DNA of 64,000 nt from Lamellibrachia satsuma (Eukaryota; Annelida; Polychaeta; Sabellida; Siboglinidae), in the NCBI GenBank assembly GCA_033239005.1, contig BSQZ01000098.1:502501-566500 (forward strand). Direction: 5' to 3'. A model generated the notes under the pieces. That model saw nothing but the letters and a program-made list of their open reading frames with translations. It was not told the DNA's origin and ran no database searches. Positions 7,082 to 62,029 of this stretch are shown here, piece after piece. The translations under genes were made by a program, and so were the position numbers. Positions within the stretch are counted from its first letter, which is position 1; each line of letters starts with the position of its first letter.

Positions 7082-7168
7082 CTATCTAACAAAGACTGCT
7101 GTGTGTGCAGTTGGTCGGCAGGCTCGCTGCTGTAGCTGGGCGTAGGCTCGTTCCAACTGCATTAGTTC
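7082..7168 (-). CDS. Coiled-coil gene, last coding exon (24)
   Basis: It encodes ELMQLERAYAQLQQRACRPT, then AHTAVFVR and TAG at 7084-7082. The acceptor is GTATGTTGCAG. The C-terminal tail after the coil is short. Confidence 0.83.
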   Translation of the reverse strand, partial: ELMQLERAYAQLQQRACRPTAHTAVFVR

Positions 7169-10100
7169 CTGCAACATACACCAGGGGTGCTTGAAATGTG
7201 TTGGCTCATGTCAACATCAGCTCATGGAAATGCGGAAAAGTTCGCAGTAAATTTGAAATCACTTGAATCTAAAGAAATACCGTGCCTAGAATGGCCTCGT
7301 GCCTAGAATGGTTTCATGTGCCTAGAATGGCCTTGTGTTCCTAGAATGGTTTCATGTGCCTAGAATGGCCTTGTGTTCCTAGAGTGGCCTCGTGTTCAAC
7401 AAACAGATTGATTTTAACGTGAATTTTGTGTTCTGAAAATTACAAAACGTGGGAAAGTGAGAACAAGTGGACAAACTATATCCAATCTGAAAACAGTAAT
7501 GTCATTGTCATGTTTTGATTTTCCTGAACAGTTTGTCACAACATTTGAAGTGATGCAGTGATAGGTATAAGATGCTAAAGCCTGGTAAATGATGGAACAG
7601 GAACGATGGCAGCGTATGAAAACAGGCCTTTATAAGACCAATGTTGACACTGCTAAAGTGATAAAATACCCATGTACAGCACCCATAACCTTAAACTATT
7701 AATCCATTCAACTATTCATTTGTTTTCTTTCTTCCCCAGTGAGTGATGGTTCTTCCCGTTAGCAATATATAATGTGCTAGCCCAGTTGCCCGGCGTTGCA
7801 AGGGAGAAACGACAAGGGCTTACGACTCCTTGCACCACCCAGTCATGTTCTGGTCGTGCAATGCCAATGGCAATGACATCTTTGCACCACAAAAATCACG
7901 TACAACTGCATTTGGTAGAAGTTTGACGTAGATGAAGTAACAAAAGTTGAATCACACAGAGTGGTGCTAACAATTGCATGTAACTATTACTCTGAGTTAC
8001 ATCATTTACATCAAATGTACAAATTGGTTCCTTTGACATAATACCCCACCACCTGGGGGAATTTCAAGTATTTTTAATGTACGAACCATCCCTAAGGCCC
8101 CCAGGCACATCTACACAATTTCAGCCCCATGTGAAACTGATGGAGATATATGAGGGAACAGACAGAGGCACAATCTACTTTATATTAAAGATGTAGATGA
8201 GATGACACTATTTTAGCAATGCTAATAAAAAAGATGTAGCGTTTCAAGGTCTGGAAATGTAAAAAATTAAGTGTGGTTTTCTAACCCGACAGCAGCTAGC
8301 ACAGTTTGATCTCAGAAGAAGACACCACATCTACCACACAACGCGCCCTCGTTTCCAACTTTGCCCTACCTTGGTCTGTTGTGTCAGTGTGCTCTGTAGT
8401 TTAGAGATCTCGAGCATCTTCTGGTTGAGGATGTGAGAATTTTGTTCGGCGCGGTCCTCCGCCATCTTGGCACGACCTTCGGCCTCCTCTGCTCTCAACT
8501 CGTACTGGCGTACGCTGCGCTCCGGCTGTAGACACAGAAACAGCGGTATGGTACGTGACGATGATAACTCTCAGAACTCGGTGATAGCGATAATGTACAG
8601 CAAGGTTATGTGCAATGAAGAAGTATTTTAAAATAAAACAAGAAATCAAAATGTTACAAATGACTAAATCTTTATGGCAATGCAAAATTTATGGTCATGT
8701 GACACAAACTGCAGAAGGAATTGGTGGAGGTCCTGGCCAATGTATTGGATCAGGGCATAAAGATGGTGGGGGTCGGTCACAGAGGGTGACCTAGTGGTGG
8801 AGTGACCCCCACCGATACCATGTGAATTGTATATAAGTCAGTAGTGGTACAGATAGTACTGGTAGTGGGTAGCTGATAGGCATGATTTACTAATTACAGT
8901 ATGTGTAAACACCTTTTGGGGGCCGGCATGCTTGCTGAGATTATTGGATGTATCTTATTTTGATGGTGTATGCTTGCCTAATTTCCTGCTCCTTAATTAA
9001 TAAATCTAAATGTCATTCTTTGGCCTATTTCAATCTACGCTGGACTTGTATTGTTATTTTGCATAAATATCCAGACATATATACACATTTCTAGTAAGGC
9101 AAAACTATATCAAATTTATATTCCAAGAGAACAAAGTCTGCTTCATGCCAAGAAGGCAGGGCTTAATCATCTACATAGGGTGGGACAAGGGTAATGTAAG
9201 CCTACCATGTTTTGGCAGTTAGCTGAAAGATCTGGCACAGAGATGCTCAGTCTCCCGGCTTTCTTCAGATTAGCGTTCTCCATCTGCAGTATCTTCACCT
9301 TGCCCTGCAGTTGCCGTAGCAACTGTGTCGTCTCGGGGCTCTCTGTGTTATCTGTTGGGCCTGTGTTGTATGCCATGCTCTGGGGGGGAAATAGGGGAGA
9401 CTGCGGCTAGTTGTAACATGGATAAGTTGTAACATGGGTAAGTTGTAACATGGATAAGTTGTAACATGGGTACGTTGCAACATGGGTAAGTTGCAACATG
9501 GGTAAGTTGTAACATGGATAAGTTGTAACATGGGTAAGTTGTAACATGGATAAGTTGTAACATGGGTAAGTTGTAACATGGGTAAGTTGTAACATGGATA
9601 AGTTGTAACATGGGTAAGTTGTAACATGGGTAAGTTGCAACATGGGTAAGTTGCAACATGGGTAAGTTGTAACATGGATAAGTTGTAACATGGGTAAGTT
9701 GTAACATGGGTAAGTTGCAACATGAGTAAGTTGTAACATGGGTAAGTTGTAACAGACGTACCACAGATTACTTACTAATGCAAATGATTTTGCAAGGTAG
9801 CAGTATTTTCATCAATAGTTTTAATCATGTCACATCAAAGCCATTAATTGCATATATATGCTACAGTTTGTCACAATGGTAAAATATATATATGTCACAA
9901 CTTGCCCCACAAAGTGGTAAATTGTAACATTTTAAACCTTGTAAAACATATCATTGCACAAATGTGTATTGCATTAAAACTCCATCTTCAACAGATTTAG
10001 CCCATCATAAATCTGATTTGTTGATGTCCAAATACGTAGTGTTTGAATAGTTTAAGGAACATCTGGAGTCAGTAATGCATATGTTTGGTTCAAATAATCA

Positions 10101-13100
10101 AAAGATTTTTAGTCATTAGATCTGATAAGGCTCAAAATAGTCTGAAATAGTAAATACTGCAGGTCAATGCTGATCATGGGGTGACTTCCGTCTTCTCACC
10201 AATCACATGACAAAGTTACAACATTTCAATAAGGGTGAAATTCACGAATTGCCGGCTTTTCCATTTTCTCTCCAATTAGTGTTTAACCAAACACTAAGTA
10301 ATTTAATAGTTTGCCTGATGATTTCACCAAAACTACTTATGTACAAAAGTTGGACAAACGAGCTAGCATGCTGCAGTGATACTAGGTAGGTTTGATTTTT
10401 TCACAAAATTAATTTGAAATGAGACTAGCGAAAAAAACAAATTGAGGAGGGACCTTTAAGTGAATTGAGGAGGGACCTTTAAGTGAATTTAAGAGGGACC
10501 TTTAAGTGAATTGAGGAGGGACCTTTAAGTGAATTGAAGAGGGACCTTTAAGTGAATTGAGAAGGGACCTTTAAGTGAATTGAGAAGGGACCTTTAAGTG
10601 AATTGAGGAGGAACCTTTAAGTGAATTGAGGAGGGACCTTTAAGTGAATTGAGAAGGGACCTTTAAGTGAATTGAGGAGGGACCTTTAAGTGAATTGAGG
10701 AGGGACCTTTAAGTGAATTGAGGAGGAACTTTTAAGTGAATTGAGGAGGGACCTTTAAGTGAATTGAGGAGGGACCTTTAAGTGAATTAAGGATGGATCT
10801 TTAAGCAGGCACTTACTTATGTTGCTTTTGTTACAACTAGCACTAGTCTCCCCTAGATGTAACACTAAAACAAGATGAGAATTTCATACTGAAAAAGGCT
10901 AGCTTTGCAAGTGAAGGCAAACCGTTCTGAAGAGATTCATCAGACTTGTGATTGTAATCTTTTAATCATTTCTCAAGTTAATTTATCTAGTTGCAATGTT
11001 CACTCTGATGAAGACCGCTAAAAGCTGTCAAAATGTTACAAAGAAAAAATGTAAAATTGATTGTAAAAAATTATTAAATGATTAATTGAAGACAACTTGG
11101 AGAAACAGAATGGCAAAATATATTTCATAACTTGTTTGTTAACATACCCTTTTGCAAAGAATGTCACACTACTATATGATGTGCAACAATTATTTGGAAT
11201 GTTATGATTTGCATAATTTATGCTGTATATGAGCAGTTTTGTATTTAAACAGGCTAGAAAAATGTGCATTAAAGCATTGAAACACAAGATAATTTACAAA
11301 GTGATGAAAACTAGTAACTAAGAGATGAAAACATCATTTAGGAAATGATCAAGAAAAATTTTTAATCACTGAACATTTTAAGTTTTGGGGATTAAAATCA
11401 TTTAATGAAAAATCGCTTTTCCTCAGGCAATTTTCACTAAAAATTCTAACTTTATTTCTGTAACTATTTCGTTACACTTACCAATCGAAGTAGCTCGTGT
11501 TTCAGCCTCTCCATTTCCCTCTTCATCCCCTCCCGTTCACGTTCCCATTCAGCCCTGTTTTTGTTAGCATCCTTCCCCCTCCTGACATAAACAATTATAA
11601 CTGAGTATATGACAACAACCAGAGAATATGACAACAACCAGAGTATATGACAACAACCAGAGAATATGACAACAACCAGAGTATATGACAACAACTAGAG
11701 TTGTTGTGGCATTGTACTGTTGAGGGCACTTTGCAAAAAACTAGATATAGTTGACAAATCATTCATGTAATCTATTTAGACCATATAAACGAACAGGCAG
11801 GTAATTGAAATTACAAACAATCTAATCTAATATTCCCATATTCCTACACAATCATGACACTACTTTTTACTTCACAAACATGTTGATATTATTACTTTAC
11901 AAATTATTCTACACATATTCAAATATGTTTAGTGTTAAATAGCAAAGAGAATCAGTTAAAAACTGCTTCATTGAAATATGCATACACTGTTTGCTACATG
12001 GAATTAACTGACTAAAACAGGTCATCTGAAATAGAATAACACTAACAGTTATGGTTGTGAGTAAACACACAAGGTGTGTTGTGAGTAAACACACAAGGTG
12101 TGTTGTGAGTAAACACACAAGGTGTGTTGTGAGTAAACACACAAGGTGTGTTGTGAGTAAACACGCAAGGTGTGTTGTGAGTAAACACACAAGGTGTGTT
12201 GTGGGTAAACACGCAAGGTGTGTTGTGAGTAAACACACAAGGTGTGAGGGCTACGGTGCTACAAGTCATCTATGTAAAGCCATGTTAGTCTCATGCTCAA
12301 ACAACTTGGAAAAAAGTGCAAATTTAAAAAAGTCAAACTGGTGATACAAAAACAAAGAAAACAAACTGACAAATCATGAAAGTATAACATTTACATGACA
12401 AGTACCACAATTACATGACGAATACAACACTTACATGACGAGTACAACGCTTACATGATGAGTACAAGCTGTACAACACTTACATGATGAGTACAACACT
12501 TACATGATGAGTAGAAGCTGTACAACACTTACATGACGAGTACAACACTTACATGACGAGTACAACACTTACATGACGAGTACAAGCTGTACAACACTTA
12601 CATGACGAGTACAACACTTACATGATGAGTAGAAGCTGTACAACACTTACATGACGAGTACAACACTTACATGACGAGTACAACACTTACATGACAAGTA
12701 CAAGCTGTACAACACTTACATGACGAGTACAACACTTACATGATGAGTAGAAGCTGTACAACACTTACATGACAAGGACAACACTTACATGATGAGTACA
12801 ACACTTACATGACGAGTACAAGCTGTACAACACTTACATGACGAGTACAAGCTGTACAACACTTACATGACGAGTACAACACTTACATGACGAGTAGAAG
12901 CTGTACAACACTTACATGACGAGTACAACACTTACATGACAAGGACATTAGGCAAGGTGGATCAGGGATTAAGAAATTGCTCAAACAGACACAGTTAAAA
13001 AAAATGGGTGTCACAATCAGAGACAAATAATAAGGTATATTTCCCCCTGGTGGGTACAATATGGTACATGACCACACTGCAAACTTCCCTGTGGGTGCAA

Positions 13101-16100: not shown

Positions 16101-19100
16101 GACGAGAAACCAAATGCTGAAATAAAATTACAAATGAAAAATCATCAACATTAAATTGCTAAAGTGAAAGCACACCTAGACAACATGCAACTAGTAATGT
16201 CCAGTAATTAATAGTTGTGATATTCTGTTGTTAATATGTCTTATACGTTAACACACCAAATCCCTTCACCACAAATTAGTTATAACTGTTTAGAATATTT
16301 ATTGGGTGATGCTTACACACGCTGGGCAAACGCATAAAGGCCACATTTGTTGTTCAGGAGAAGACCACTCTAGAAAGAGCAAACATATTCAAGAGAGATT
16401 ACCACTAGCTGCTATAAAGGTCAGGGTGTCTGTTGCAAATTATGTCCAAGTAATTCATGTAGATATTTTCATTCAAGATATCGCTGATAAAGACTATATT
16501 ACAAACAGGATCAAAATAACTGGAATTATTTGGCAGTATTTGGCAGACATTGTTTTTTATGTTTAAATAAATTAATATACAAAGAGTTTGCTAGTTAATG
16601 AAATGAATGTGTATAGATATGGTACACTCCCATGTAATTAAACAAAATTATATTTGCCAGAGAACTTATTAATAAAAAGAAAGTAATTCAGAGTATGTTT
16701 TCTCTTCAAAATATATAGCATTCACATTTTAAAATTAAGCACACTTCAGGGAATTTGTTGCAATCTGCCAATGACTGGTAGGCCTTTTAATAATGTAAAG
16801 TGTGGTTTGATCAGGGTTAAGGCAGATTTCCACAGAGGCATGATAACAGAGTATTTATCATTAAATTGCTAAAAACACAATTTAATGTTTAGTTTATTTG
16901 ATTAATCCTAGTCATTTCAATGAACTCCAAAGGACGTTGTACAAAAAGTTAACTTTTATATTTGAATAATAGAGATTTTAGGCACACTGTGAAAAAACAA
17001 AACCAAAAGGAGCACAGTGTAGTTAAATAGTAATGATTATATGACAGTTAATTCAATTGGAAAAATCAACAAATTGGTTAGATAACTCTCATATTTTACA
17101 GCAGCATCTGAATCGACATAAACATTTGCACATTCATCTACACTTAAGACAATGAAAAACACTTAAACTGTTGATAAAAAATATAAATAATAAAATCATA
17201 CAAATGAAAACAATTCTAGAAAACATCATAAAAACATGCAGTAACCAAAACCACAATAAGTTGACTAAGACAAACTTACTTGTTCCCAGGGTTTGCCAGG
17301 ATTCTGCTTTAAACACAGCCAAATAACACAAGTTACACACATCAGTGACAATTCTGCAGGGCTCTGTAAAATTACACACAATTTAAAATGCCCCTTCAAG
17401 ATATTTCAGTCAAAGGTATGATGGGAAATCTGGCATATTTATATAGATATGTTGCTATGGAAACCAGAGAAGCTGTATACCTTGATGAGTCTGTCTTTGA
17501 GCATCTCTAGGGCCTCTAGTTTCTCCGTCTGCATCTTCTGTCTCAACGCCTCCAACTCCTCCTTCTGGGAACAAGGAGAAGGAAGGAAATTAAGGAGTGT
17601 CTCCCTGTCTGAATCCCTGCTACGTTATCTCATGAAATGAAGAAATTAATTTGGTAGACTTTTACAGCTTCTGGTTGAGGTTCTGCCACTCATTGTGTAG
17701 ATGGACCTTGTAGTTGTTTCAGAATTAAGGAAGATACAAAGGCTGAGAAACATTGAGAACACCAGAACCGTACACAGACCTTCTCGTTGTCCGTCCTTGT
17801 CAGACTGTGTTTCTGTTCTTCCAACTGTTCAGTCATCGTCTGCATTCGTTGTCTCAGCTCCTCCCCGAGGGTGCGCAGACTCGACTGAAATAAATATGTA
17901 TATTAAATATTGTAACAGCTTTACAAAGGCTAAATGCCAATAACATATTATGTAAAATATATGGTAAAAAGTTAAAAAGGAAAACAGTATTCGGAAGATC
18001 TTTACTGACTAAAAAATTGCATAAATAAAAGGTTTTGTTCATGGCTTAGAAACTCATTATCATATTGAGAAAAAAGTGCATCCATGAATTAAAGACATGC
18101 AACTCCCATAGCCATGAGCCACTTCATGTGATTTCCGTCTGCACATTCAGACCAATCCACATCACAGCCATCTCTATGAGACCAACTGCCTACTGGGACT
18201 AAACTTATCCTACGACTAATAAAGGCTAACTCTATGATAAGACCATTTACTACCTAAACAATTATAATGAGACTATTATTTACATCCACACTCCACATTC
18301 CACATCCCACATCCACACTTCACATCCACACTCCACATTCACACTCCACTTCCACACTCCACATCCACACTCCACATCCACACTCCACTTCCACACTCCA
18401 CATCCACACTCCACATTCACACTCCACATCCACACTCCACATCCACACTCCAAATCCACACTCCATATCCACGCACTTCACATCCACACCAAACATTTAA
18501 TTCCTTCTGCAAGATATTAATGACAAGTTTCTTCAATACTGGCACAATAACCTAAAATAACATTTTAAATCCCTAATCCATATTCAACTGTTGAGAGTCG
18601 ATTAAGAAACAACAATATGTTAGTAACATGAGTGACACGAACCATGGCTGCAGTGAGACTGGAGGTCGGTCTGATGGAACTTCTCAGGTAGCCAACAGGA
18701 CGACATGGTGACCAACCATTGTAGCTGTGGACACAAACACATGTCACCACTTGGACACAAACACATGGCATCACTTGGACACAAACACATGGCATCACTT
18801 GGACACAAACACATGGCATCACTTGGACACAAACACATGGCATCACTTGGACACAAACACATGGCATCACTTGGACACAAACACATAGTATCACTTGGAC
18901 ACAAACACATGGCATCACTTGGACACAAACACGTGGCATCACTTGGACACAAACACGTGGAATCACTTGGACACAAACGCATGGCATCACTTAGACACAA
19001 ACACATAGCATCACTTGGACACAAACACATGGCATCACTTGGACACAAACACGTGGAATCACTTGGACACAAACACATGGAATCACTTGGACACAAACAA

Positions 19101-22100
19101 GTGGAATCACTTGGACACAAACAAGTGGAATCACTTGGACACAAACACATGGCATCACTTGGACACAAACACATGGCATCACTTAGACACAAACACATGG
19201 CCTCACTTGGACACAAACACATGGCATCACTTGGACCCAAACACGTGTCATCAGTTAGACAAAGACATACTGCAACAATGAAGTGCTCAAAAACTCTCTC
19301 ATTGGAGACACGAGTGCCTGTGTAAAACTCTCTCATTGGAGACATGAGTTCCTGTGTAAAACTCTCTCATTGGAGACATGAGTTCCTGTGTAAAACTCTC
19401 TCATTGGAGACACGAGTTCCTGTGTAAAACTCTCTCATTGGAGACACGAGTGCCTGTGTAAAACTCTCTCATTGGAGACACGAGTGCCTGTGTAAAACTC
19501 TCTCATTGGAGACACGAGTGCCTGTGTAAAACTCTCTCATTGGAGACATGAGTTCCTGTGTAAAACTCTCTCATTGGAGACATGAGTTCCTGTGTAAAAC
19601 TCTCTCAATGGAGACATGAGTTCCTGTGTAAAACTCTCTCAATGGAGACACGAGTGCCTGTGTAAAACTCTCTCATTGGAGACACGAGTGCCTGTGTAAA
19701 ACTCTCTCATTGGAGACACGAGTGCCTGTGTAAAACTCTCTCATTGGAGACACGAGTGCCTGTGTAAAACTCTCTCATTGGAGACATGAGTTCCTGTGTA
19801 AAACTCTCTCAATGGAGACATGAGTGCCTGTGTAAAACTCTCTCATTGGAGACACGAGTTCCTGTGTAAAACTCTCTCATTGGAGACATGAGTGCCTGTG
19901 TAAAACTCTCTCATTGGAGACACGAGTGCCTGTGTAAAACTCTCTCATTGGAGACAGGAGTGCCTGTGTAAAACCCTCTCATTGGAGACACGAGTGCCTG
20001 TGTAAAACTCTCTCATTGGAGACACGAGTGCTTGTGTAAAACTCTCTCATTGGAGACACGAGTGCCTGTGTAAAACTCTCTCATTGGAGACAAGAGTTCC
20101 TGTGTAAAACTCTCTCAATGGAGACACGAGTGCCTGTGTAAAACCCTCTCATTGGAGACACGAGTGCCTGTGTAAAACCCTCTCATTGGAGACACGAGTG
20201 CCTGTGTAAAACTCTCTCATTGGAGACACGAGTGCCTGTGTAAAACTCTCTCATTGGAGACATGAGTTCCTGTGTAAAACTCTCTCAATGGAGACACGAG
20301 TGCCTATGTAAAACAACTTCATATCCAACCAAATATGGATTTGTAATATTTAATGCAAAAACTGACAATTAAATTAATAGACAGATATCAATGTGTAAAG
20401 TTTGCAATATCTAATTACTGTATATTATTAAAAAATTGATAGGATTACAGTAGTGGCTAATTTAAGGGAAATCCCAAAATGTAAAACATCAATCTGTAAG
20501 CCACATTATTCAACAACACTGGGCATAATGTATTACGTATCATTTATTACATAATTTCATGTTGATTTGTCAACTGCCTCCACTTTGCAACCAATAAAGC
20601 TCAAATATGATCATGTAACTAAGAAAGTCGTCTGCCTCACCTTGAGAAGGTGACCTTGCGAGGGAGTTGGCCTAGCAGCTCCACAATGCTGCGACACTCC
20701 TCATTGAGGTCATTGATGACTTTCTTGTCATGTCTGTCAGTCAGTGCAACGGTTTCCTCCTCACGAGACTTGAGGCTGTAGCGCTCATTCCTCAGCTGCT
20801 GAATCTCAGCCTCCTGGTGTTTGATCGTCTCCCGCAGATGTTCGATCGATCGGTGAGTCTCCTGCAACCAATCAGCTGTCAGGACAGGATATTTTCCCAC
20901 TAAAATTCTCTCTGTGTGTTACCTGACCTTTTCAAAATACTGTATTCTACCTAATAAACGTTCATACAGTACACTCGAAAAATGTCAAGGAATCTGTTCT
21001 TATAAGTGTACACCAACAATTTTTCTCTAGACAATAAGTAACTGTTTAACACTTGTGGTGCCATTTGGTGATTAATGTGGAACAACTGAAAAGTTGTGCC
21101 AACTGTTTAACACCAGATGGCGACACTTTTCAGTTGTTCCACACCAGTCAAATTACAATAATTATGGATCCTGCCGATTAAAAAGGGGTGTACGCTAATT
21201 AGGGCATATATGCTTAATAGGTCGAATGTGGAATATTGAAACAAAATCTGCATTTCAATTTTTTTATATAAAAATGCATTAAGAATATAAAGATAAATTA
21301 ATATGTTTTACTTGTTTATAACTCAGCAATGTATATACCAATGGTCTATGTAAATGTATATATCTATGTTAAATGTATATATGTATGTTAAATGTATATA
21401 TGTATGTTAAATGTATAGTTCATTCTTAGCAGTTTACTTAACCATGCAAGTTGTATAATAAATGTATTCATGTTAACATACAACAGAACCTCACAAATAA
21501 GACCACTCATAGCACTTGTGGTCTTAATTACGAGGCAGCCTTAACTGTTCATGGAGTCAATATTAATCATAACATTTTAGGGATTTTGAAAAAAGTGGTT
21601 GAATTTTTTATGTTCTTAATACCAAGGTGATCATTAGGTGAGGTTCCACAGTATAATATCAAGGTGATCATTAGGTGAGGTTCCACTGTATAATATGACA
21701 GACCTTCTCAATGCCTTCTCTGAGCAGGTCCAGTTCACGTTCTTTTTCAAGTTCAGCCGCCTCTTTGGCCACATTGACCGCGGTCATCTTTTCACGGTAG
21801 GCCTGACGGGCGTGACTCCGAGCCTCCTCCAACTCCTGGGGGAGAAAGGTTGTTTGTTACCAGTTGGTGGGGGGTGGGTTGACTGTGGGGGGTGATGGCC
21901 AAATCTTAATTACACTTACAACACATGTTTGTAATTATACTGCCAACAAATTATTATTATTTTATAAATTCATAAATCAATAAATATTTTATATAAATAT
22001 TGTTATAGTTATTTTATTTATATCTGGTGAATCCTGTAATAAAATACCAACATTTACAGGGAATGTGATTTACACTTCTGTCTTATTGTCCTTGAGTCAC

Positions 22101-25100
22101 TGTAAGACTTGAACACAAGTAGGTGGCATGTGGACTTATAACTTTAACTTAATTTAAAGTGACAAGATGGAAATGCCAACAATGATTGGAATGAGGCAAG
22201 TGGAAGACCACATATGAGACAGATGGATGAGATCAGGGACATAAGATGGATGAGATCAGGGACATAAGATGGATGAGATCAGGGACATAAGATGGATGAT
22301 ATCAGGGTTATAAGATGGATGAGATCAGGGTTATAAGATGGATGATATCAGGGATATAAGATGGATGAGATCAGGGTTATAAGATAGATGAGATCAGGGA
22401 TATAAGATGGATGAGATCAGGGTTATAAGATGGATGATATCAGGGATACAAGATGGATGAGATCAGGGTTATAAGATAGATGAGATCAGGGTTATAAGAT
22501 GGATGAGGTCAGGGACTTAAGATGGATGAGATCAGGGATACAACAAAGCTGACGAAGGATGAGTTGATGGCAGTAACAAGAGACAGGATTGCTTAAAAAC
22601 AGCTCATCATCACCAAAAGTCATACGATTTGACGGAAACAGTTACATTGACAGTAACTTCAAAGAAGAAGAACCACAAAGTCGACAAGAACCACTGCTGC
22701 CAGAAAGAACCACTGCTGCCAGAAAGAACCACTGCTGTCAGAAAGAACCACTGCTGTCAGAAAGAACCACTGCTGTTGACAAATACCACTGCTGTTGACA
22801 AGAACCACTGCTGTCAGAAAGAACCGCTGCTGTCAGCAAAAACCACTGCTGTTGACAAGAACCACTGCTGTCAGAAAGAACCACTGCTGTCAGAAAGAAC
22901 CACTGCTGTTGACAAAAACCACTGCTGTTGACAAGAACCACTGCTGTCAGAAAGAACCACTGATGTTGACAAGGACCACTGCTGCCAGAAAGAACCACTG
23001 CTGTCAGAAAGAACCACTGCTGTCAGAAAGAACCACTGCTGTCAACAAGAACCACTGCTGTTGACAAGAACCACTGTTGTTGACAAGAACCACTGCTGTC
23101 AGAATCAACCACTGCTGCCAGAAACAACCACTGATGTTGACAAGGACCACTGCTGCCAGAAAGAACCACTGCTGTCAACAAGAACCACTGCTGTTGACAA
23201 GAACCACTGCTGTTGACAAGAACCACTGCTGTCAGAAAGAACCACTGCTGTCAGAAAGAACCACTGCTGTCAGAAAGAACCACTGCTGTTGACAAGAACC
23301 ACTGCTGCCAGAAAGAACCACTGCTGCCAGAAAGAACCACTGCTGTCAGAAAGAACCACTGCTGCCAGAAAGAACCACTGCTGTCAGAAAGAACCACTGC
23401 TGTCAGAAAGAACCACTGCTGTCAGAAAGAACCACTGCTGTCAGAAAGAACCACTGCTGTTGACAAGAACCACCGCTGTCAGAAAGAACCACTGCTGTCA
23501 GAAAGAACCACTGCTGTCAGAAAGAACCACTGCTGTCAGAAAGAACCACTGCTGTCAGAAAGAACCACTGCTGCCAGAAAGAACCACTGCTGTCAGAAAG
23601 AACCACTGCTGCCAGAAAGAACCACTGCTGTCAGAAAGAACCACTGCTGCCAGAAAGAACCACTGCTGTCAGAAAGAACCACTGCTGTCAGAAAGAACCA
23701 CTGCTGTCAGAAAGAACCACTGCTGTCAGAAAGAACCACTGCTGTCAGAAAGAACCACTGCTGCCAGAAAGAACCACTGCTGCCAGAAAGAACCACTGCT
23801 GTCAGAAAGAACCACTGCTGTCAGAAAGAACCACTGCTGCCAGAAAGAACCACTGCTGTCAGAAAGAACCACTGCTGTCAGAAAGAACCACTGCTGTCAG
23901 AAAGAACCACTGCTGTCAGAAAGAACCACTGCTGTCAACAAGAACCACTGCTGTCAGAAAGAACCACTGCTGTCAACAAAAACTACTGCTGTCAGAAAGA
24001 ACCACTGCTGTCAGCAAGAACCACTGCTGTCTGCGTACCTTCTTGAGTTGTGTAATCTGGAGCTGATGTTTCTCGACCAGGTCCCTCTCCCGGGCCATGT
24101 CCTCATTGACCCGGGAGACAGCCTTCTCCAGTTCTCCTTGGGCCCTCAGGGAGGCCTGCTTCACCTCCTCTCCCTTCTCCAGCTCCCAACGTCTCCTCTC
24201 CTCCTCCAGCACACAGTGCATCTGTGGGACACAGACCATGGTTGATTTGCCCACTAGTGCACATGTTAATATGTTTATGATGTTTTATCATCATGTTAAT
24301 AAAAAACATGATGATAAAACATCATAAACATTCCTGACATCCACTGACACTATGTTACCAATGTTCTGTCAAAGTTCTGTCAAAATCACACACATCCAGC
24401 TCTGTTAATCATGTTCCAAACATGCTTAACCTCAAAATTAACAGTTTTTGCATTTGGGATGTGACTGTTTTCTCCTAAATGTTGTGTAACTGAAATTTCT
24501 GTGACTTTAATATGAGAATTATGAAAGGTTAGACTTATAAAGATGACCATTTTTCAAGAACACAAAGTTACAAAGACTCCGGAGGGAGAGTACGACAGTG
24601 TCAACATAAATTAGTGTATAAATTCCACCAAAAAACGGCTTTGGCCATGTAACTGAACAACTTAGCACAGGTGTCCACATCTACTCATGGAAAAGCAGGA
24701 AACTCTTGTCCACACCTCGTGCATTTCGATGAAAAAGTGGAAACTGTGACCAAGTGGAAAAAGCAGTATTAACTGTGTGTGTGTGTGTGTGCGCGTGCGT
24801 GCGTGCGTACATGTGTGGGTGTGTGTGCGGGGGGTGTGTGTGGGTGCATGCATGCATGCACGTGTGTGTGTGGCAAATCCAATCTGACATTCTGTCCAGT
24901 AGTTTCGACTGCACTGACCGTGGCCTGAGTGTCCTTGCAGGCCGCCTGGACCTTAGTCTGGATGGACATCTCCTGCTCCTTCAGTCTGTCCTTTAAGACT
25001 TCCACCTCTACTTCCCTCGCCTGGTACATAATATAAAAAAAGTTTATTATTATTCAATTTTATTTCAATTTTATTATTTCATTTATTAACTATTATTATT

Positions 25101-28100
25101 ATTATAAATTTTCATTATTTAATAAATAACAATAAATAATTGATAATAACCAATCAATAACTAATAATCAATCACTAATAATAACTACTAAAATAGAATA
25201 TTTTCAAGTTTACAATGTTGTATGTACTAATGTGGCGAGACACAACATGAGTTGACATCTATTGCTAAACCACACTAAGGTCATATGTACTAATGTGGCG
25301 AGACACAACATGAGTTGACATCTATTGCTAAACCACACTAAGGTCATATGTACTAATGTGGCGAGGCACAACATGAGTTGACATCTATTGCTAAACCACA
25401 CTACGGTCATATGTACTAATGTGGCGAGACACAACATGAGTTGACATCTATTGCTAAACCACACTAAGGTCATATGTACTAATGTGGCGAGACACAACAT
25501 GAGTTGACATCTATTGCTAAACCACACTAAGGTCATATGTACTAATGTGGCAAGACACACCATGTGTTGACATCTATTGCTAAACCACACTAAGGTCATA
25601 TGTACTAATGTGGCGAGACACAACATGAGTTGACATCTATTGCTAAACCACACTAAGGTCATATGTACTAATGTGGCGAGGCACAACATGAGTTGACATC
25701 TATTGCTAAACCACACTAAGGTCATATGTACTAATGTGGCGAGACACAACATGAGTTGACATCTATTGCTAAACCACACTAAGGTCATATGTACTAATGT
25801 GGCGAGACACAACATGAGTTGACATCTATTGCTAAACCACACTAAGGTCATATGTACTAATGTGGCGAGACACACCATGTGTTGACATCTATTGCTAAAC
25901 CACACTAAGGTCATATGTACTAATGTGGCGAGACACAACATGAGTTGACATCTATTGCTAAACCACACTAAGGTCATATGTACTAATGTGGCAAGACACA
26001 CCATATGTTGACATCTATTGGTAAACCACACTAAGGTCATATTTAAAATGATCAGGACAGATATCTTGATGAGATGACTGAATGAGTGACTCACAGTGAA
26101 TCGCCCCTGCAGCTCAGTCAGTTGCTGCTTCAGCTGCATCTCCAGCTGTCGCAGCAGCTGTGCCTGCTGCTGCCTGAGCCTGTCCTCCAGATCCACCATG
26201 GCCTGAGCCTTCTCTGTCTCTGCCGTTTCCCTCAACTGCACCAACGCCAGCTCCTGGTGACAGAACAACACTATCAAGACAAGTCACAATAAAACTACCC
26301 ACATTTTTTTTACCCTGATTTGTTTTTATTCGCTGATTTAGTCAGAAAATAATTTGGTTCTTGCGTATGTGTCAGTTTTGAACTGATGATCTGTCATTTG
26401 CCGGTTGACAAATGTGGGCCATATCCTTGATGATCTGTCATTTAACTGTTAACAAATGTGGGCTATATCCTTGATGATCTGTCATTGCCTGATGATCTGT
26501 CATTTGCCGATTGACAAATGTGGGCCATATCCTTCATGATCTGTCATTTAACTGCTGACAAATGTGGGCTATATACTTGATGATCTGTCATTTGCCTGTT
26601 CACAAATGTGGGCCATATCCTTGATGATCTGTCATTTAACTGCTGACAAATGTGGGCTACATCCTTGATGATCTGTCATTTGCTTGTTGAAAAATGTGGG
26701 CCATATCCTTGATGATCTGTCATTGCCTGTTGACAAATGTGGGCCATATCCTTGATGATCTGTCATTGCCTGTTGACAAATGTGGGCCATATCCTTGATG
26801 ATCTGTCATTGCCTGTTGACAAATGTGGGCCATATCCTTGATGATCTGTCATTTGCCTGTTCACAAATGTGGGCCATATCCTTGATGATCTGTCATTTGC
26901 CTGTTGACAAATGTGGGCCATATCCTTGATGATCTGTCATTTGCCTGTTCACAAAAGTGGGCCATATCCTTGATGATCTGTCATTTGCCTGTTCACAAAT
27001 GTGGGCCATATCCTTGATGATCTGTCATTTGCCTGTTGACAAATGTGGGCCATATCCTTGATGATCTGTCATTTGCCTGTTCACAAATGTGGGCCATATC
27101 CGTGATGATCTGTCATTGCCTGTTGCAATTGCCACTAATGTCAGTTAACCGGCACTTTCTAAACACATAGGTTCCACTTTTTTCAAAAATGGAGTCCACT
27201 ATTTCCTTATAGAAAGGCCCAATTTCCCAATACAACAACCTGCAAAGAGAACACTCGTTCCAAACCATAACTGTTGGCATTTACTTGAGGGTCAGTCAGT
27301 GTGACTGTCACAGACTGCCCCCCCCACACACCCACACCTTTACTTGAGGGTCAGTCAGGGTGACTGTCAGACTCCCCCCACAACCTTTACTTGAGGGTCA
27401 GTCAGGGTGACTGTCAGACTCCCCCCACAACCTTTACTTGAGGGTCAGTCAGGGTGACTGTCAGACTCCCCCCACAACCTTTACTTGAGGGTCAGTCAGG
27501 GTGACTGTCAGGCTCCCCCCACAACCTTTACTTGAGGGTCAGTCAGGGTGACTGTCAGGCTACCCCCACAACCTTTACTTGAGGGTCAGTCAGGGTGACT
27601 GTCAGGCTACCCCTCCACATGCACACACCTTCTCCTCCTTCAGGTTGGCTGTGCTCCGATCCATCTCCTCGTGAGCTGCCTCTCGTCGTTCCAGCTCGCG
27701 AGCTGCCTCGTGTTCTAGCTCCAACACACGCTCCCTGGGAGAGCAGGAGCAAATAACAGTAGACATCAGCAAATGACAGTAAACATCAGCAAATAATAAT
27801 AAACACCAGCAAATAACAGTTAGCATCAGCAAATGACAGAAAACATCAGCAAATGAGAATAAACATCAATAAATGACAGTAAACAACATAAATAATATTA
27901 TTTTGTCATTTACAAGATTTAACGAGATTTAACAAGATTGCCATCCAAGGCATAGGCCCAGATGGCAAGTGGACAAGGAAGCCATCGGCTTATTAAGACT
28001 CCAACATTTTTAATCTACGTGTAACCCGCACGCCTGAGATATGTGTCAACCTTGTTTTTAAACATATTCACGCTGCTAGCAGTTACACAATCTGTAGACA

Positions 28101-28664
28101 ATTTGTTCCATTCATTGATTGTCCTTTGTGAGAACGAGTGCTTCCTGATATCAAATATACACTGATGCTTTACTAGTGCTACTTCATGTACCTCATGTAC
28201 CTCATGTACCTCATGTCCATTAATGAACATTAACATTAATTTGTTGGTTAACATGAAAAGTTTTATACATACCAGCAAATTTTTAACTGCAATAAAATTG
28301 CCCAATTAAAACTTTTCATAATTTCTGTTGAATAATTTGCTTGAAATTTATCAAATTCCCCATTTAGAAAGTCTTGAATTACATTATATTTATGAAAGTC
28401 AGTTAAACTAGCAAGGAAATTCAAGGAAATAACAATAAAATTACAAATTTACCCAGAAAACAAGTAACACTGTATTCATTCACACAACTGCATGATTAGA
28501 TAGACCCAGGGTGTTTTAAGGCCTTTCATATGGGCAAAATGCCTGTATACAGACCTGTTCTGCCCACACGAGACAGATTAACAATAATCATATTTAATTT
28601 TAAAGCTTCCCTGGGCACAGCAGCCAAAAACACCCAATACCATATATGTGGGTAGCAGCTAGCT

Positions 28665-28748
<84 letters not shown>

Positions 28749-31700
28749 TACCAACAGTTACTTTTCAATGCTGCCATCCAGATATTTATAACCTGATCTG
28801 AGTGAGATGTACCAAAGAAGCAATCGCACGCCATCGCCAATTTGGTATAGTAATTTAGCTGGTATTCATAAAATACATGAATTCTCTCCATAAAGTTGGA
28901 ACACGTTAACAGGCTTCTGTGTCGTCAAATCTTGCTACTTGGGTTTTAGCTTAATTTGTTTATAATAAAGCAGCCAGTTGCCTGGCATTGCACAGGAGAA
29001 AAAGGCAATCACTGCAGGAGCTTTTGACTCTTCTTGCATTACCCAGTCACACTTTACTAGGACAATGGCAATGACAACTTCATTACCCCATGTCACGTAC
29101 AACTGTTGGTTTCACGAAGCGTTCGTAGACATGGGTGTTTGATGTAGATTTTATTTTTGAAATTTTTTTAATGTATGAACCACCCCACGGGCCCCTGGCA
29201 CCATGGACTCTCAGACACCATGGGCACCCAGGCACGTCTACCAAATTTTAGCCATATACGTGTGAAACTGATGGAGATGTGAGGAACAAGCTACTTTATT
29301 ATAAGATGTGCTACCAATATGCATGCTGAAAAATCAGTAATTTTTATAAATTAACAGACGCATCCTTTCAACCAACCCCCACCCACCTACACCCTAAACT
29401 CCCGGCTGTGGGATCTGCTCTTTCCCTGTGTCCCCACTCTTCCAACATCTACCGTCCATTTAAAACAAGGCATACAGAGAGCCACTGGTCACCTGAGTTG
29501 CAGAACTTGTTCATCTTTGTGGTCAGTCTCAACCTGGACCGCGGCCAGTTTGGTGGTGACATCGGTCAGTTGGCTGTGTAGTTTGGCCATCTGGTTGTTC
29601 AGGTTTGACCGCACCTCAACCAGTTGTTCCTGCTGGTCACTCTTGAGCTCCTCGGACTCCTCCTGGTGAGCCTGGACAGACACGGTGGACTGAAGAATCT
29701 CCCTAAACTCCACAGTCGACTGAAGAACATTTCCCACTTCTCCCTAAGCTCCACAGTGGACTGAAGAACCTTTCCCACTTCTCCCTAAGCCCCACAGTGG
29801 AGTGAAGAGCCTTTCCCATTTCTCCCTAAGCCCCACAGTGGACTGAAGAACCTTTCCCACTTCTCTCTAACCCCCACAGTGGACTGAAGAACCTTTCCCA
29901 CTTCTCTCTAACCTCCACAGTGGACTGAAGAACCTTTCCCACTTCTCTCTAACCTCCACAGTGGACTGAAGAACCTTTCCCACTTCTCTCTAACCTCCAC
30001 AGTGGACTGAAGAACCTTTCCCACTTCTCTCTAACCTCCACAGTGGACTGAAGAACCTTTCCCACTTCTCTCTAACCTCCACAGTGGACTGAAGAACCTT
30101 TCCCACTTCTCCCTAAGCTCCACAGTGGACTGAAGAACCTTTCCCACTTCTCCCTAAGCCCCACAGTGGAGTGAAGAGCCTTTCCCATTTCTCCCTAAGC
30201 CCCACAGTGGACTGAAGAACCTTTCCCACTTCTCTCTAACCCCCACAGTGGACTGAAGAACCTTTCCCACTTCTCTCTAACCTCCACAGTGGACTGAAGA
30301 ACCTTTCCCACTTCTCTCTAACCTCCACAGTGGACTGAAGAACCTTTCCCACTTCTCTCTAACCTCCACAGTGGACTGAAGAACCTTTCCCACTTCTCTC
30401 TAACCTCCACAGTGGACTGAAGAACCTTTCCCACTTCTCTCTAACCCCCACAGTGGACTGAAGAACCTTTCCCACTTCTCTCTAACCTCCACAGTGGACT
30501 GAAGAACCTTTCCCACTTCTCTCTAACCTCCACAGTGGACTGAAGAACCTTTCCCACTTCTCTCTAACCCCCACAGTGGACTGAAGAACCTTTCCCACTT
30601 CTCTCTAACCTCCACAGTGGACTGAAGAACCTTTCCCACTTCTCTCTAACCTCCACAGTGGACTGAAGAACCTTTCCCACTTCTCTCTAACCTCCACAGT
30701 GGACTGAAGAACCTTCCCCACTTCTCTCTAACCTCCACAGTGGACTGAAGAACCTTTCCCACTTCTCTCTAACCTCCACAGTGGACTGAAGAACCTTTCC
30801 CACTTCTCTCTAACCTCCACAGTGGACTGAAGAACCTTTCCCACTTCTCTCTAACATCCACAGTGGACTGAAGAACCTTTCCCACTTCTCTCTAACCTCC
30901 ACAGTGGACTGAAGAACCTTTCCCACTTCTCTCTAACCTCCACAGTGGACTGAAGAACCTTTCCCACTTCTCTCTAACCTCCACAGTGGACTGAAGAACC
31001 TTTCCCACTTCTCTCTAACCTCCACAGTGGACTGAAGAACCTTTCCCACTTCTCTCTAACATCCACAGTGGACTGAAGAACCTTTCCCACTTCTCTCTAA
31101 CCTCCACAGTGGACTGAAGAACCTTTCCCACTTCTCTCTAACCTCCACAGTGGACTGAAGAACCTTTCCCACTTCTCTCTAACCTCCACAGTGGACTGAA
31201 GAACCTTTCCCACTTCTCTCTAACCTCCACAGTGGACTGAAGAACCTTTCCCACTTCTCTCTAACCTCCACAGTGGACTGAAGAACCTTTCCCACTTCTC
31301 TCTAACCTCCACAGTGGACTGAAGAACCTTTCCCACTTCTCTCTAACCTCCACAGTGGACTGAAGAACCTTTCCCACTTCTCTCTAACCCCCACAGTGGA
31401 CTGAAGAACCTTTCCCACTTCTCTCTAACCTCCACAGTGGACTGAAGAACCTTTCCCACTTCTCTCTAACCTCCACAGTGGACTGAAGAACCTTTCCCAC
31501 TTCTCTCTAACATCCACAGTGGACTGAAGAACCTTTCCCACTTCTCTCTAACCTCCACAGTGGACTGAAGAACCTTTCCCACTTCTCTCTAACCTCCACA
31601 GTGGACTGAAGAACCTTTCCCACTTCTCTCTAACCTCCACAGTGGACTGAAGAACCTTTCCCACTTCTCTCTAACCTCCACAGTGGACTGAAGAACCTTT

Positions 31701-37700: not shown

Positions 37701-40700
37701 TCAATGATATCCCTTCAGTCTGCAAGTACACATCAATGATATCCTTTCAGTCTGCAAGTACACATCAATGATATCTTAAAAGTCCCGCCTCAAAAGTACT
37801 CATTCTCACAAAGGACAATAAATGTATGGAACAAATTATCTACGGATTGTGTAATTGTCAACAGTGTGAATATGTTTAAAAACAAAGTTGGCAAATTTCT
37901 CAGGAGGGCAGATTACACATAGATGAACACTTGGAATCTTGATAAGCCAATGGCTTCCTTGTCCACTTGCCATCTGGGTGTTTTGCCTTGGATGGCAATC
38001 TTGTTAAATGTTGTTAAATCAGGTTAATTTGATTTTTTCATTCCTCTCATTTTACAAACATTTCACGCTGAACTGAACATATCAAGTCTCCACAGCAGCT
38101 TGCTGGATCTAGTATCCACAGTGGCTTGCTGGCTCTAGTATCCACAGCGGCTTGCTGGCTCTAGTATCTACAGTGGCTTGCTGGCTCTAGTATCCACAGT
38201 GGCTTGCTGGCTCTAGTATCCACAGCGGATTGCTGGCTCTAGTATCTACAGTGGCTTGCTGGCTCTAGTATCCACAGTGGCTTGCTGGCTCTAGTATCCA
38301 CAGCGGCTTGCTGGCTCTAGTATCCACAGTGGCTTGTTGGCTCTAGTATCCACAGTGGCTTGCTGGCTCTAGTCTCCACAGTGGTTTGCTGGCTCTAGTA
38401 TCCACAGTGGCTTGCTGGCTCTAGTATCCACAGTGGCTTGCTGGCTCTAGTATCCACAGTGGCTTGCTGGTTCTAGTATCCACAGTGGCTTGCTGGCTCT
38501 AGCATCCACAGTGGCTTGCTTGCTCTAGTATCCACAGTGGCTTGCTGGTTCTAGTATCAACAGTGGCTTGCTAGCTCTAGTGTCCACATCAGCTTGCTGG
38601 CTCTAATATCCACAACAGCTTGCTGGCTCTAGTATCCACAGTGGCTTACTGACTCTAGTATCCACAGTGGCTTGCTGGCTCTAGTACCCACAGCGGCTTC
38701 CTGGCTCTAGTATCCACAGTGGCTTACTGGCTCTAGTATCCACAGCAGCTTCCTGTCTCTAGTATCCACAACAGCTTGCTGGCTCTAATATCCACAACAG
38801 CTTGCTGGCTCTAGTATCCACAACAGCTTGCTGGCTCTAGTATCCACAGCGGCTTCCTGGCTCTAGTATCCACAGTGGCTTGCTGACTCTAGTATCAACA
38901 GTGGCTTCCTGACTCTAGTATCCACAGCGGCTTCCTGTCTCTAGTATCCACAGCGGCTTCCTGTCTCTAGTGTCCACAGCAGCTTCCTGGTTCTAGTATC
39001 CACAGTGGCTTGTTGGCTCTAGTATCCACAATGGCTTGCTGGCTCTAGTATCCACAACGGCTTGCTGGCTCTATTATCCACAGTGGTTTGTTGGCTCTAG
39101 TATCCACAGTGGCTTCCTGGCTCTAGTATCCACAGTGGCTTCCTGGTTCTAGTATCCACAGTGGCTTGCTGGCTCTATTATCCACAGTGGTTTGTTGGCT
39201 CTAGTATCCACAGTGGCTTACTGGCTCTAGTATCCACAGTGGCTTGCTGACTCTAGTATCCACAGTGGCTTCCTGGATCTAGTATCCACAGTGGCTTGCT
39301 GGCTCTATTATCCACAGTGGTTTGTTGACTCTAGTATCCACAGTGGTTTGCTGGTTCTAGTATCCACATTGGCTTGCTGGTTCTAGTATCCACAGTGGTT
39401 TGCTGGCTCTAGTATCCACAGTGGCTTCCTGGCTCTAGTATCCACAGTGGCTTGCTGGCTCTAGTATCCACAGTGGCTTGCTGGCTCTAGTATCCACATT
39501 GGCTTCCTGGCTCTAGTATCCACAGTGGCTTCCTGGCTCTAGTATCCACAGTGGCTTCCTGGCTCTAGTATCCACAGTGGTTTGCTGGCTCTAGTGTCCA
39601 CAGTGGCTTACTGGCTCTAGTATCCACAGTGGCTTCCTGGCTCTAGTGTCCACAGTGGCTTCCTGGCTCTAGTATCCACAGTGGTTTGCTGGCTCTAGTG
39701 TCCACAGTGAATTGCTGGCTCTAGTATCCACAGTGGTTTGCTGGCTCTAGTGTCCACAGTGGCTTGCTGGCTCTAGTATCCACAGTGGCTTGCTGGCTCT
39801 AGTATCCACAGTGGCTTGCTGGCTCTAGTATCCACAGTGGCTTGCTGGCTCTAGTATCCACAGTGGCTTCCTGGCTCATCTGTACACATTTGTTATTTAG
39901 TTTCAGTGAAGTAATTTTACCAGATCTGGTTGAAATTTGGTAAAAAAAGCAAAAGTGGTCCAGCTCTACATGCAATGATGTATGGCAGTTCACACTTTCA
40001 CAATTTACCAGATATGACAGTCAAAGTCAATTTTTATGACGATTTCAACAAAAGTACACACTTTTTTATTCATATATTATTTAAACTATTCACACTACAA
40101 ATTAGATTGTCAGCGAACCTGATTCTATTTACACACTACAAATTAAATATCAATGAACCTGATTCTATTCACACACTACAAATTAAATATCAATGAACTT
40201 GATTCTATTCACACACTACAAATTAAATATCAATGAACCTGATTCTATTCACACACTACAAATTAAATATCAATGAACCTGATTCTATTCACACACTACA
40301 AATTAGAATATTAACGAACCTGATTCTATTCACACACTACAAATTAAATATCAATGAACCTGATTCTTTTCACACACTACAAATTAGAATATTCATGATG
40401 GGATTAATGAATGGTGGAAGGAATGTAACTATAGAACACGTTAATCAAATTTTATCTCTCTCAGAAACAATGTTTGGGTGTTTTTTTGTTTGTGGATTGT
40501 TTGAAAATTCTGAATTTAATGTGTCTAAAGCTGTCATATTTATTACTGGATAAAAAAAATATGTCAATGATTTTTTAAATCTTAACACACTTGATTTTTT
40601 ATGGTGTACACTGTAGTGCTAAATGTATTGTGAATGCCAACCAGCAGCTTAGAGTCATCTAATAACACCTGGAAGACTCGTCCAGCATGAGGGAGGGGAC

Positions 40701-43700: not shown

Positions 43701-44001
43701 AGCATACAGCCTTTCTTAGATGAATGACGGCAGTAGTGGTAGCATACAGCCTTTCTTAGATGAATGACGGCAGTAGTGGTAGCATACAGCCTTTCTTAGA
43801 TGAATGACGGCAGTAGTCGTAGCATACAGTCTTTCTTAGATGAATGACGGCAGTAGTCGTAGCATACAGCCTTTCTTAGATGAATGACGGCAGTTTCAGA
43901 GTTTCAATGAAAACATTCTGTCTGACATCAACAACATATTTTTTGTGACAACTTTATTTTGTGTTTCCCTTTTAAACTGGTACAACATCACTACTCACAT
44001 T

Positions 44002-44083
<82 letters not shown>

Positions 44084-57271: not shown

Positions 57272-57331
<60 letters not shown>

Positions 57332-58730: not shown

Positions 58731-58776
<46 letters not shown>

Positions 58777-61700
58777 TCATGTATCCCCAATGGTCTGTGA
58801 TATGTAGTGACTCGGCCACAGGCTGAGCATGATAAGTGGTCCCTGCTTTGGGGTTCATGGTCCCTGCTAGAGCCACACTTAACAAAAACCCTGTTATGTG
58901 AAGGTGGAAATAAATTTAGGTTCTATATCAACTGAAAAAGCATGAGGTAAAATTGAGAAGGATTCACATGAGATGACATTTACCTGTTTGATGATTTCTT
59001 TGATGTCTGTTTTCCCTTTGATGTTTTACTTGTTGGATGAAATTGTTCTTCAGAACCATTTTCAGTGCTTGTCCCATTGCTCAGACACCGTCTTGGTGTG
59101 CTATGGTGGGACTCTGTGGTCTCTGTCGGGGAGGCAAACCAAAATTAGATCTTGCTACAGCAATTATTCAAACCTGCTTCCTGTAATAATCCATGTCTAT
59201 CAAGAACATCAGTCCTTAGACATTTAACCACACATTCTTAGAAGAAAAATCTTGACCAATGAATATTTTCTACAACTTCATAATTAATCTGCTTACACCA
59301 AAATACAAGCATTTGGCAAATGATGGTGTGGCAGTTTCCTTTTAATGTTTGGGTGGTCTTTTCAACATACATTTTATTTTGAAGATAAGACTACTTTTTT
59401 TCATTATTAAAAAAAAATTAAGAACAAGTTTGTGATCAAATGAAACTGTTAAATGATGTAATCAATAGCATAGAGAGCATCTAATTGAAACACTCCATTG
59501 CTTCTGTTCGCAGTTCACAGGATAACAGCTGAACCTGTCTCAGGAGAGAATACGCCATAATGAAAGAAAGACTGGTTCGGTTATGAGACATGTTGTACCT
59601 TTGGGTTTGTAGTAGGCCATCTTGATCATGTTGAGGAGTCTGTTGTCAAAGCCAGACGTGTCCAGGTTACTGCTGTCTCCTCCTTCTGTACTGCTGCCTT
59701 CGTCCTCACTCACAGACTTGTCTGGGAGAAATAGGGACATCAACAGAGTCAACAGTGCAATGTTACCGTGACACATCAACAGAGTCAACAGTGCAATGTT
59801 ACCGTGACACATCAACAGAGTCAACAGTGCAATGTTACCGTGACACATCAACAGAGTCAACAGTGCAATGTTACCATGACACATCAACAGAGTCAACAGT
59901 CCAATGTTACCATGACACATCAACAGAGTCTACAGTGCAATGTAACTGTGATACATCAACAGAGTCAACAGTGCAATGTTACCATGACACATCAACAGAG
60001 TCAACAGTCCAATGTTACTGTGACACATCAACAGATTCAACAGTGCAGTGTTACTGTGACACATCAACAGGGTCAACAGTGCAATGTTACCGTGATACAT
60101 CAACAGAGTCAACAGTGCAATGTTACCATGACACATCAACAGAGTCAACAGTGCAATGTTACCATGACACATCAACAGAGTCAACAGTCCAATGTTACTG
60201 TGACACATCAACAGATTCAACAGTGCAGTGTTACTGTGACACATCAACAGGGTCAACAGTGCAATGTTACCATGACACATCAACAGAGTCAACAGTGCAA
60301 TGTTACTGTGACACATCAACAGAGTCAACAGTGCAATGTTACCATGACACATCAACAGATTCAACAGTGCAGTGTTACTGTGACACATCAACAGAGTCAA
60401 CAGTGCAATGTTACCGTGACACATCAACAGAGTCAACAGTGCAATGTTACCATGACACATCAACAGAGTCAACAGTGCAGTGTTACTGTGACACATCAAC
60501 AGAGTCAACAGGGCAGTGTTACCGTGACACATCAACAGGGTAAACAGTGCAATGTTACCGTGACACATCAACAGAGTCAACAGTGCAATGTTACCGTGAC
60601 ACATCAACAGTGCAATGTTACTGTGATACATCAACAGAGTCAACAGTGCAATGTAACTGTGATATATCAACAGAGTCAACAGTGCAATGTTACTGTGACA
60701 CATCAACATAGTCAACAGTGCAATGTTACCGTGATACATCAACAGAGTCAACAGTGCAATGTTACCATGACACATCAACAGATTCAACAGTGCAGTGTTA
60801 CTGTGACACATCAACAGAGTCAACAGGGCAGTGTTACCGTGACACATCAACAGGGTAAACAGTGCAATGTTACCGTGACACATCAACAGAGTCAACAGTG
60901 CAATGTTACCGTGACACATCAACAGTGCAATGTTACTGTGATACATCAACAGAGTCAACAGTGCAATGTTACTGTAATACATCAACAGAGTCAACAGTGC
61001 AATGTTACTGTGATACATCAACAGAGTCAACAATGCAATGTTACTGTGATACATCAACAGAGTCAACAGTGCAATGTTACTGTGATACATCAACAGAGTC
61101 AACAGTGCAATGTTACTGTGATACATCAACAGAGTCAACAGTGCAATGTTACTGTGATGCATCAACAGAGTCAACAGTGCAATGTTTCTGTGATGCATCA
61201 ACAGAGTCAACAAGGTGGAAATTATTATATCAGTCATCACACCACCCTTGAAACAAAAAATACAGGAATATTTTTTTTACAAAAACAAATGAATTTTTTA
61301 ACTTAAGGATTAAAAAGTTTGAGGTTTTTAAGAGATGAAATATAATATTACACACTGGCTAGTAAGTAGACTCATCTTTTGAGCTGGTGCAATTTAGACA
61401 AGACATGTTCACACAAAATCAGAAGTAAGCAGTAGATCATTCAACCATGAGATGTGTGTAAGATTCATAATTTAGAGTTGTTATTTCCTTGGTAATAAAT
61501 TAGTAAAATTTTACCATAATGGAATGGTGCACATTTCAGGGTATTTTAGTAGCACCATTAAATTGTTTTGTGTTTATTAAACCAAATAAAGGAATTTAAA
61601 GGAATATTTTGCAAAAATAAAAGAATATAAAGGAATTTTATGGGGTGGGACTAAAATAATACATTTAAAGGAATTTTCCTTAAAGTAAAGGGCCGGTCCG

Positions 61701-62029: not shown

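Follow-up and report, generated by a model that had tools for sequence, protein, structure and literature searches.

Minisatellites are usually treated as being randomly placed in introns. The closest described system is that of the amphioxus mirages, which are minisatellites that duplicate exon-intron borders (PMC3087553; PMC3902484 on PGBD5). In the available passages of these two papers, mirages are located at both 5´ and 3´ boundaries, vary in unit length and are unstable in length, and splicing is apparently undisturbed. Excerpts on two further systems report that the Caenorhabditis elegans intronic minisatellite CeRep25B is over-represented near alternatively spliced regions (PMC4039745), and that intron gain occurred by tandem genomic duplication in potato RdRp (PMC4974935). 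The opening of the abstract of PMC8096271 presents human VNTRs and does not mention a spike at splice signals. The passages at hand from the Ridgeia genome paper are confined to methods and to totals of repeats and introns, and a search of a Daphnia tandem-repeat study for splicing-related terms found no passage. In the open-access literature, we found no report of splice-edge arrays in annelids and no match for vestimentiferans combined with minisatellites.

Here we analysed a stretch of 64,000 nucleotides from the tubeworm Lamellibrachia satsuma (the window), in which tandem arrays lie beside the splice sites of a coiled-coil gene. The pattern is true and sharp in this one gene.

The coiled-coil gene and its surroundings

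The window contains the following features besides the arrays:

7082..62029, minus strand: coiled-coil gene with 23 coding exons in the window, modelled from open frames and GT/AG sites
1831-4491, plus strand: second gene, in which an RF-1 domain was recognized (Pfam PF00472, E 4e-10), with donor 2472 and acceptor 4285 placed by GT/AG
45847-48297, minus strand: open frame of 816 codons inside the 22-kb intron of the coiled-coil gene, on the same strand
49213-51400 and 56812-57963, plus strand: mutually similar fragments of a non-LTR retrotransposon, with an RVT_1 match at 56907-57329

The final model of the coiled-coil gene is a single open frame of 1104 codons with one terminal stop. It starts at 62029 and ends at 7082, the same limits that were given by a sequence-only reading of this DNA. 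Two of the exons were missed at first; they were revealed by the L. satsuma protein P0001, and their edges were placed afterwards. Exon 1 begins with an acceptor, which suggests that further exons may lie outside the window. The first-modelled protein, from which these two exons were absent, shares 91% identity with P0001 (88% of the query) and 72% with P0002 of Ridgeia piscesae (over 87%). Distant homologues were found in Lingula, Tubulanus, Owenia and molluscs, and the names that the homologues bear are generic or doubtful. Searches by tblastn with P0001 and P0002, which are both predicted proteins, matched exons 3 to 23, and the matches end mostly within a few residues of the modelled splice sites. 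Exon 1 is matched by several relatives and exon 2 by P0019, with 88% identity over 42 residues. Exon pieces matched no Pfam family above its curated cut-off, four homologues matched none at E 0.001, and a two-exon piece of the gene matched no solved structure. The open frame that runs across every modelled junction suggests that the mRNA is spliced normally despite the arrays.

The introns range from 215 bp to 22.3 kb, a wider span than the 1-5 kb assumed in the sequence-only reading. Seven of the 22 lack an array of score at least 100, and these seven are 215-697 bp long. The open frame at 45847-48297 is probably a nested gene. It was left out of the coiled-coil model because it has a stop codon of its own and the phase is kept when exon 2 is joined straight to exon 3. 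This frame matched no Pfam family, and its product (MNLGF...IPKRFL) presumably resembles ITPRID/TESPA-type proteins. If the sequence-only reading counted it as exon 3, as the numbering suggests, then the earlier exon numbers equal the present ones plus one from exon 3 on. A 19-bp array (45748-45822) lies downstream of the nested frame, with its end 24 bp from the stop codon, and is another array near a gene edge.

The RF-1 domain gene, which we take to be MTRFR-like, has a 25-bp array of 1050 bp in its intron. The arrays nearest to its sites 2472 and 4285 are 73 and 257 bp away, which places 0/2 within 30 bp. An uninterrupted AT run is located at 57280-57328 within the retrotransposon stretch, and a dispersed repeat recurs at 27940-28164, 37794-38020 and 51482-51731.

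Arrays at splice sites of the coiled-coil gene

Arrays were defined as TRF rows and merged, and 87 rows yielded 58 arrays that occupy 37% of the window. The arrays that touch splice sites of the coiled-coil gene are listed below; "earlier" refers to the exon number in the sequence-only reading.

59737..61212, minus strand: 36-bp array, 15 bp upstream of the exon 2 acceptor (exon 59721-59599; earlier exon 2)
37262..37775, minus strand: 32-bp array, 4 bp upstream of the modelled exon 3 acceptor (37257; earlier exon 4)
29698..31812, minus strand: 41-bp array, 26 bp upstream of the exon 9 acceptor (29671; earlier exon 10)
27748..27885, minus strand: 20-bp array, 13 bp upstream of the exon 10 acceptor (27734; earlier exon 11)
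27331..27619, minus strand: 47-bp array, starting 9 bp after the exon 10 donor (27629; earlier exon 11)
25221..26042, minus strand: 63-bp array, starting 52 bp after the exon 11 donor (26095; earlier exon 12)
22686..24031, minus strand: 19-bp array, starting 7 bp after the exon 13 donor (24039; earlier exon 14)
21617..21696, minus strand: 37-bp repeat of 2.2 copies, starting 7 bp after the exon 14 donor (21704; absent from the earlier list)
18728..19261, minus strand: 24-bp array, 3 bp upstream of the exon 16 acceptor (18724; earlier exon 17)
11603..11701, minus strand: 19-bp array, 21 bp upstream of the exon 20 acceptor (11581; earlier exon 21)
9409..9754, minus strand: 16-bp array, 29 bp upstream of the exon 21 acceptor (9379; earlier exon 22)

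Acceptors are 3, 4, 13, 15, 21, 26 and 29 bp from their arrays, and donors 7, 7, 9 and 52 bp. All ten of the array-splice contacts that the sequence-only reading had listed were recovered by TRF and the rebuilt gene model. Its suggestion that arrays are tolerated only near exons does not suit this gene, since 11 of 49 arrays are within 60 bp of a splice site and the others are farther away. The majority of the acceptors in array-bearing introns (8/15) have no array within 30 bp, and the array nearest to the exon 1 acceptor is 1.3 kb away. At TRF defaults, no array edge runs into an exon. With looser TRF settings, four rows overlap three exons; these include the exon 10 donor array, for which the row at 27280-27657 enters the exon by 29 bp.

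The exon 3 acceptor is ambiguous. The unit of the array at 37262..37775 contains an acceptor-like TACTTGCAG, which scores 5.6 as against -2.1 for the modelled acceptor, and an alternative TTGTAG sits in the last copy of the array. With a direct junction of exons 2 and 3, the reading phase demands the acceptor at 37257; if the 22-kb intron holds an unseen exon, the true exon 3 acceptor could be the array's own. The annotated protein does not settle the matter, because P0001 begins inside this array and its MCTCRLKG is translated array sequence, which indicates that gene prediction in Lamellibrachia can start within minisatellites.

To compare these distances with chance, arrays were re-placed within their own introns with array and intron lengths kept, so that position was drawn in array-collapsed introns. 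With arrays of TRF score at least 50, an array lies within 30 bp at 10 of the 30 ends of array-bearing introns as against 2.75 expected, and with a score of at least 100 and a period of at least 7, 10 ends are observed as against 2.07. In both sets, all of the 20,000 shuffles stayed below 10, which bears out the view of the sequence-only reading that such closeness (2.1-2.8 ends expected) is beyond random placement. When exons were instead dropped randomly into array-free sequence, 1.6 or 1.2 ends were expected (0/3000 draws). The excess persists at a score of at least 300 (7 ends within 30 bp as against 1.71 expected, p 0.00045) and with looser TRF settings (11 as against 4.22, p 0.00025). 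A scan of the threshold from 5 to 300 bp in the score at least 100 set gave a corrected p of 0/10,000, and of 0.0002 without the 22-kb intron. After removal of the doubtful sites, namely the ambiguous exon 3 acceptor, the sites of exon 2 and the 2.2-copy donor repeat, 7 of 26 ends remain as against 1.86 expected (p 0.0008). Acceptors alone are significant in 4/4 array sets (p 5e-5 to 7e-4); donors alone reach significance in 0/4 (p 0.07-0.35).

The excess is confined to short range. It vanishes at 300 bp, where 15 ends are observed as against 15.6 expected, and the zone from 30 to 100 bp holds one end as against about 4.3 expected (score at least 100 set). Gaps of at most 30 bp between arrays are at chance in both sets compared (3/34 as against 2.40 expected, p 0.44, and 2/20 as against 1.11), which gives no support to a general clustering of arrays. 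The closeness of arrays is specific to exon edges.

Sequence of the array edges, units and copies

At donors 27629, 24039 and 21704, the array is preceded by 9, 7 and 7 bases of intron, which comprise little beyond the donor hexamer, and three of the four donor-side arrays start within a few bases of the end of the hexamer. At acceptors, what separates the array from the exon is a pyrimidine-rich stretch plus AG, or only CAG or GCAG. The pyrimidine-rich stretch before the exon 16 acceptor is array sequence, and a degenerate copy of the array at 29698..31812 extends to about -9. A branch-like YTNAY motif lies inside the array in 4/7 acceptor cases; in the other 3/7, no YTNAY was found at -45 to -16. 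Where the flank is 3-15 bp, at least, the branch-point region is array sequence, and in some cases the arrays themselves then supply branch-point and pyrimidine sequence. The sense unit at 59737..61212 has no AG and contains the branch-like motifs TTGAC and TTGAT.

Enrichment of splice motifs in acceptor-side units is not general. AG-free sense units number 4/7 on the acceptor side as against 1.9 expected (p 0.052), and 4/19 among free units as against 3.84 expected, with two long free units left out. The best acceptor score of an acceptor-side unit is the 5.6 of the array at 37262; one donor-side unit scores 6.6, and free units score up to 8.1.

The sequence-only reading had assigned each array its own unit, and this agrees with a comparison of 39 units (period at least 12, score at least 130), in which the sole similar pair consists of two TRF rows of one array. 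The arrays thus do not derive from a shared unit or from a single mobile repeat. The units show no significant likeness to the exons beside them: by shuffling, 0/11 are similar at p<0.05 to the 40 bases of exon next to them, and the lowest value, 0.054, belongs to the exon 10 donor array (27629). Copy similarity from the exon edge outward follows no consistent gradient, with unit cutting that is crude for a few arrays.

Sequences of relatives were examined as open frames cut from genome contigs in a protein database. P0022, from an ENA contig of 614,582 bases, carries exon 21 with an array of the window's 16-bp unit. At the end of the array and the beginning of the flank, its residues agree with those of the window, and the preceding repeats differ, which indicates that, in this one contig, the array interior changes and the edge stays. 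A frame change in P0022 points to a different length of the C run before exon 21. P0016, whose contig is also listed with 614,582 bases, is identical to the window over its own length, and the contig of this length is therefore very close to the window. P0019, whose contig has 402,826 bases, includes exon 2, and inspection by eye of the 30 visible codons upstream showed no repetition, in contrast to the 1.5-kb array of the window at this place; that array is thus probably young and lineage-specific. In P0019, a retrotransposon-like stretch lies within about ten codons after the exon 2 donor, and other repeats can therefore adjoin splice signals. P0018, P0020, P0021, P0023 and P0024 carry little or nothing on arrays at the edges tested, and a search with P0001 in viral and genome contig collections found no relative.

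Explanations and relation to known systems

We tentatively favor, with somewhat less than even confidence, the explanation that intron ends are where tandem duplications are seeded or retained and that selection on splice signals sets the exon-side edge. Short tandem duplications would preferentially appear or persist within the final tens of intron bases beside the exon, and slippage or unequal exchange would then expand them into minisatellites. Selection would remove copies that take in the GT...AG signals or the exon, so that the exon-side edge would rest at the limit of the splice signal, which is near +8 to +10 for donors and, for acceptors, the pyrimidine tract or a position just upstream of it. 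Both the seeding at the junction and the selection behind the sharp edge are what we infer. The molecular event could be break repair, replication slippage or a process linked to transcription; the R-loops, splice-linked breaks and template switching proposed in the sequence-only reading are candidates. The seeding view is limited to one gene, the units hold no founder derived from a junction, and neither the second gene nor the exon 1 acceptor has an array beside it. If array birth is tied to exon borders, a mutational process would read gene structure and introns would grow from their ends, a question within direct reach of the tubeworm assemblies and RNA reads that exist.

The main rival is erosion to a barrier, in which arrays would arise anywhere and neutral deletions would strip the unique flank until only the splice signal remains. 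Array edges just outside the signals, the single end at 30-100 bp and the several acceptors that keep little beyond the pyrimidine tract and AG are all consistent with it. However, erosion should shrink the gaps between arrays too, and the flat array-array gaps weaken it, in a test that is incomplete because arrays that have fully met were merged by the script. Erosion seems somewhat unlikely to us; if true, it would show cleanly how small the selected part of an intron is. A local accident, real in one repeat-rich gene chosen as striking within a genome that follows random placement, appears rather improbable. The gene was indeed chosen after being seen, and the second gene contributes no contact, but the corrected p values, with and without the largest intron, allow for many scanned genes, if not for an unlimited number.

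Arrays could also have been born when introns were about 100-300 bp long, necessarily near splice sites, with later insertions lengthening the other side. The short introns that lack arrays today fit such a history, and the 30-bp count alone is easily reached with ancestral introns of 100 bp (P 0.71) and sometimes with those of 150 bp (P 0.23). Many more ends would, however, be placed within 100 bp: at least 10 ends within 30 bp together with at most 11 within 100 bp occurred in 0/4000 runs at each of six lengths from 80 to 300 bp, and the joint probability for the looser array set (at most 12 within 100 bp) was at most 0.00075, under a model that assumes insertions of 200-1500 bp and whose outcome depends on that choice. 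This makes the short-intron history very improbable. The least probable explanation is that arrays are kept for splicing, with AG-free, repeated branch-point/pyrimidine units that strengthen weak exons. The share of AG-free units on the acceptor side, with the 19 free units at expectation, and the YTNAY motifs inside arrays point in this direction, but these statistics are marginal. Moreover, the acceptor-like site in the unit at 37262 would be harmful rather than helpful, acceptor-like sites elsewhere are no rarer or commoner in kind, and one relative (P0019) has no array beside exon 2.

The explanation by seeding at intron ends can be extended to a process that acts throughout vestimentiferan genomes, seeds tandem duplications at exon-intron junctions and is the same as that behind lancelet mirages, after copies that invaded exons were purged. 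We regard this extension as unlikely; if true, minisatellites and intron growth would have a general, lineage-amplified source that transcription or splicing might trigger.

Among the systems described above, as far as their available passages go, the tubeworm arrays share with human minisatellite VNTRs the tandem repetition of units of at least 7 bp (PMC8096271), and with potato RdRp a tandem duplication tied to intron structure (PMC4974935). The potato case is one of intron gain, whereas exons 3 to 23 of the present gene are matched in Ridgeia and the intervening introns contain the arrays. CeRep25B is one named repeat near alternative splicing (PMC4039745), in contrast to the tubeworm units, which are unrelated to each other. 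The likeness is closest to the amphioxus mirages, which are also tandem arrays of varied units at exon borders, 5´ and 3´ alike (PMC3087553; PMC3902484); in the tubeworm, 11 array edges lie within 52 bp of a splice site and 10 within 30 bp. With respect to instability of length or composition between haplotypes, P0022, which may be a haplotype or another species, has different inner copies at exon 21. With respect to splice signals in the copies, the unit at 37262 scores above the modelled acceptor, 4/7 acceptor-side units are AG-free, and free units score as high. Mirage units, as the passages of the two papers describe them, span the boundary and copy the exon, whereas at TRF default settings the tubeworm arrays end before the exon is reached. 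Significant exon similarity was found in none of the 11 units, the arrays at 37262 and 27331-27619 being doubtful cases, and for this reason the arrays are not classed as mirages. Their hosts also differ, mirages being described from lancelets (PMC3087553; PMC3902484) and the present arrays from an annelid. Judged by this analogy, the tubeworm arrays may well be a product of the same process as mirages, and the tubeworm pattern is a variant of a mirage-like curiosity, which it resembles but with which it is not identical.
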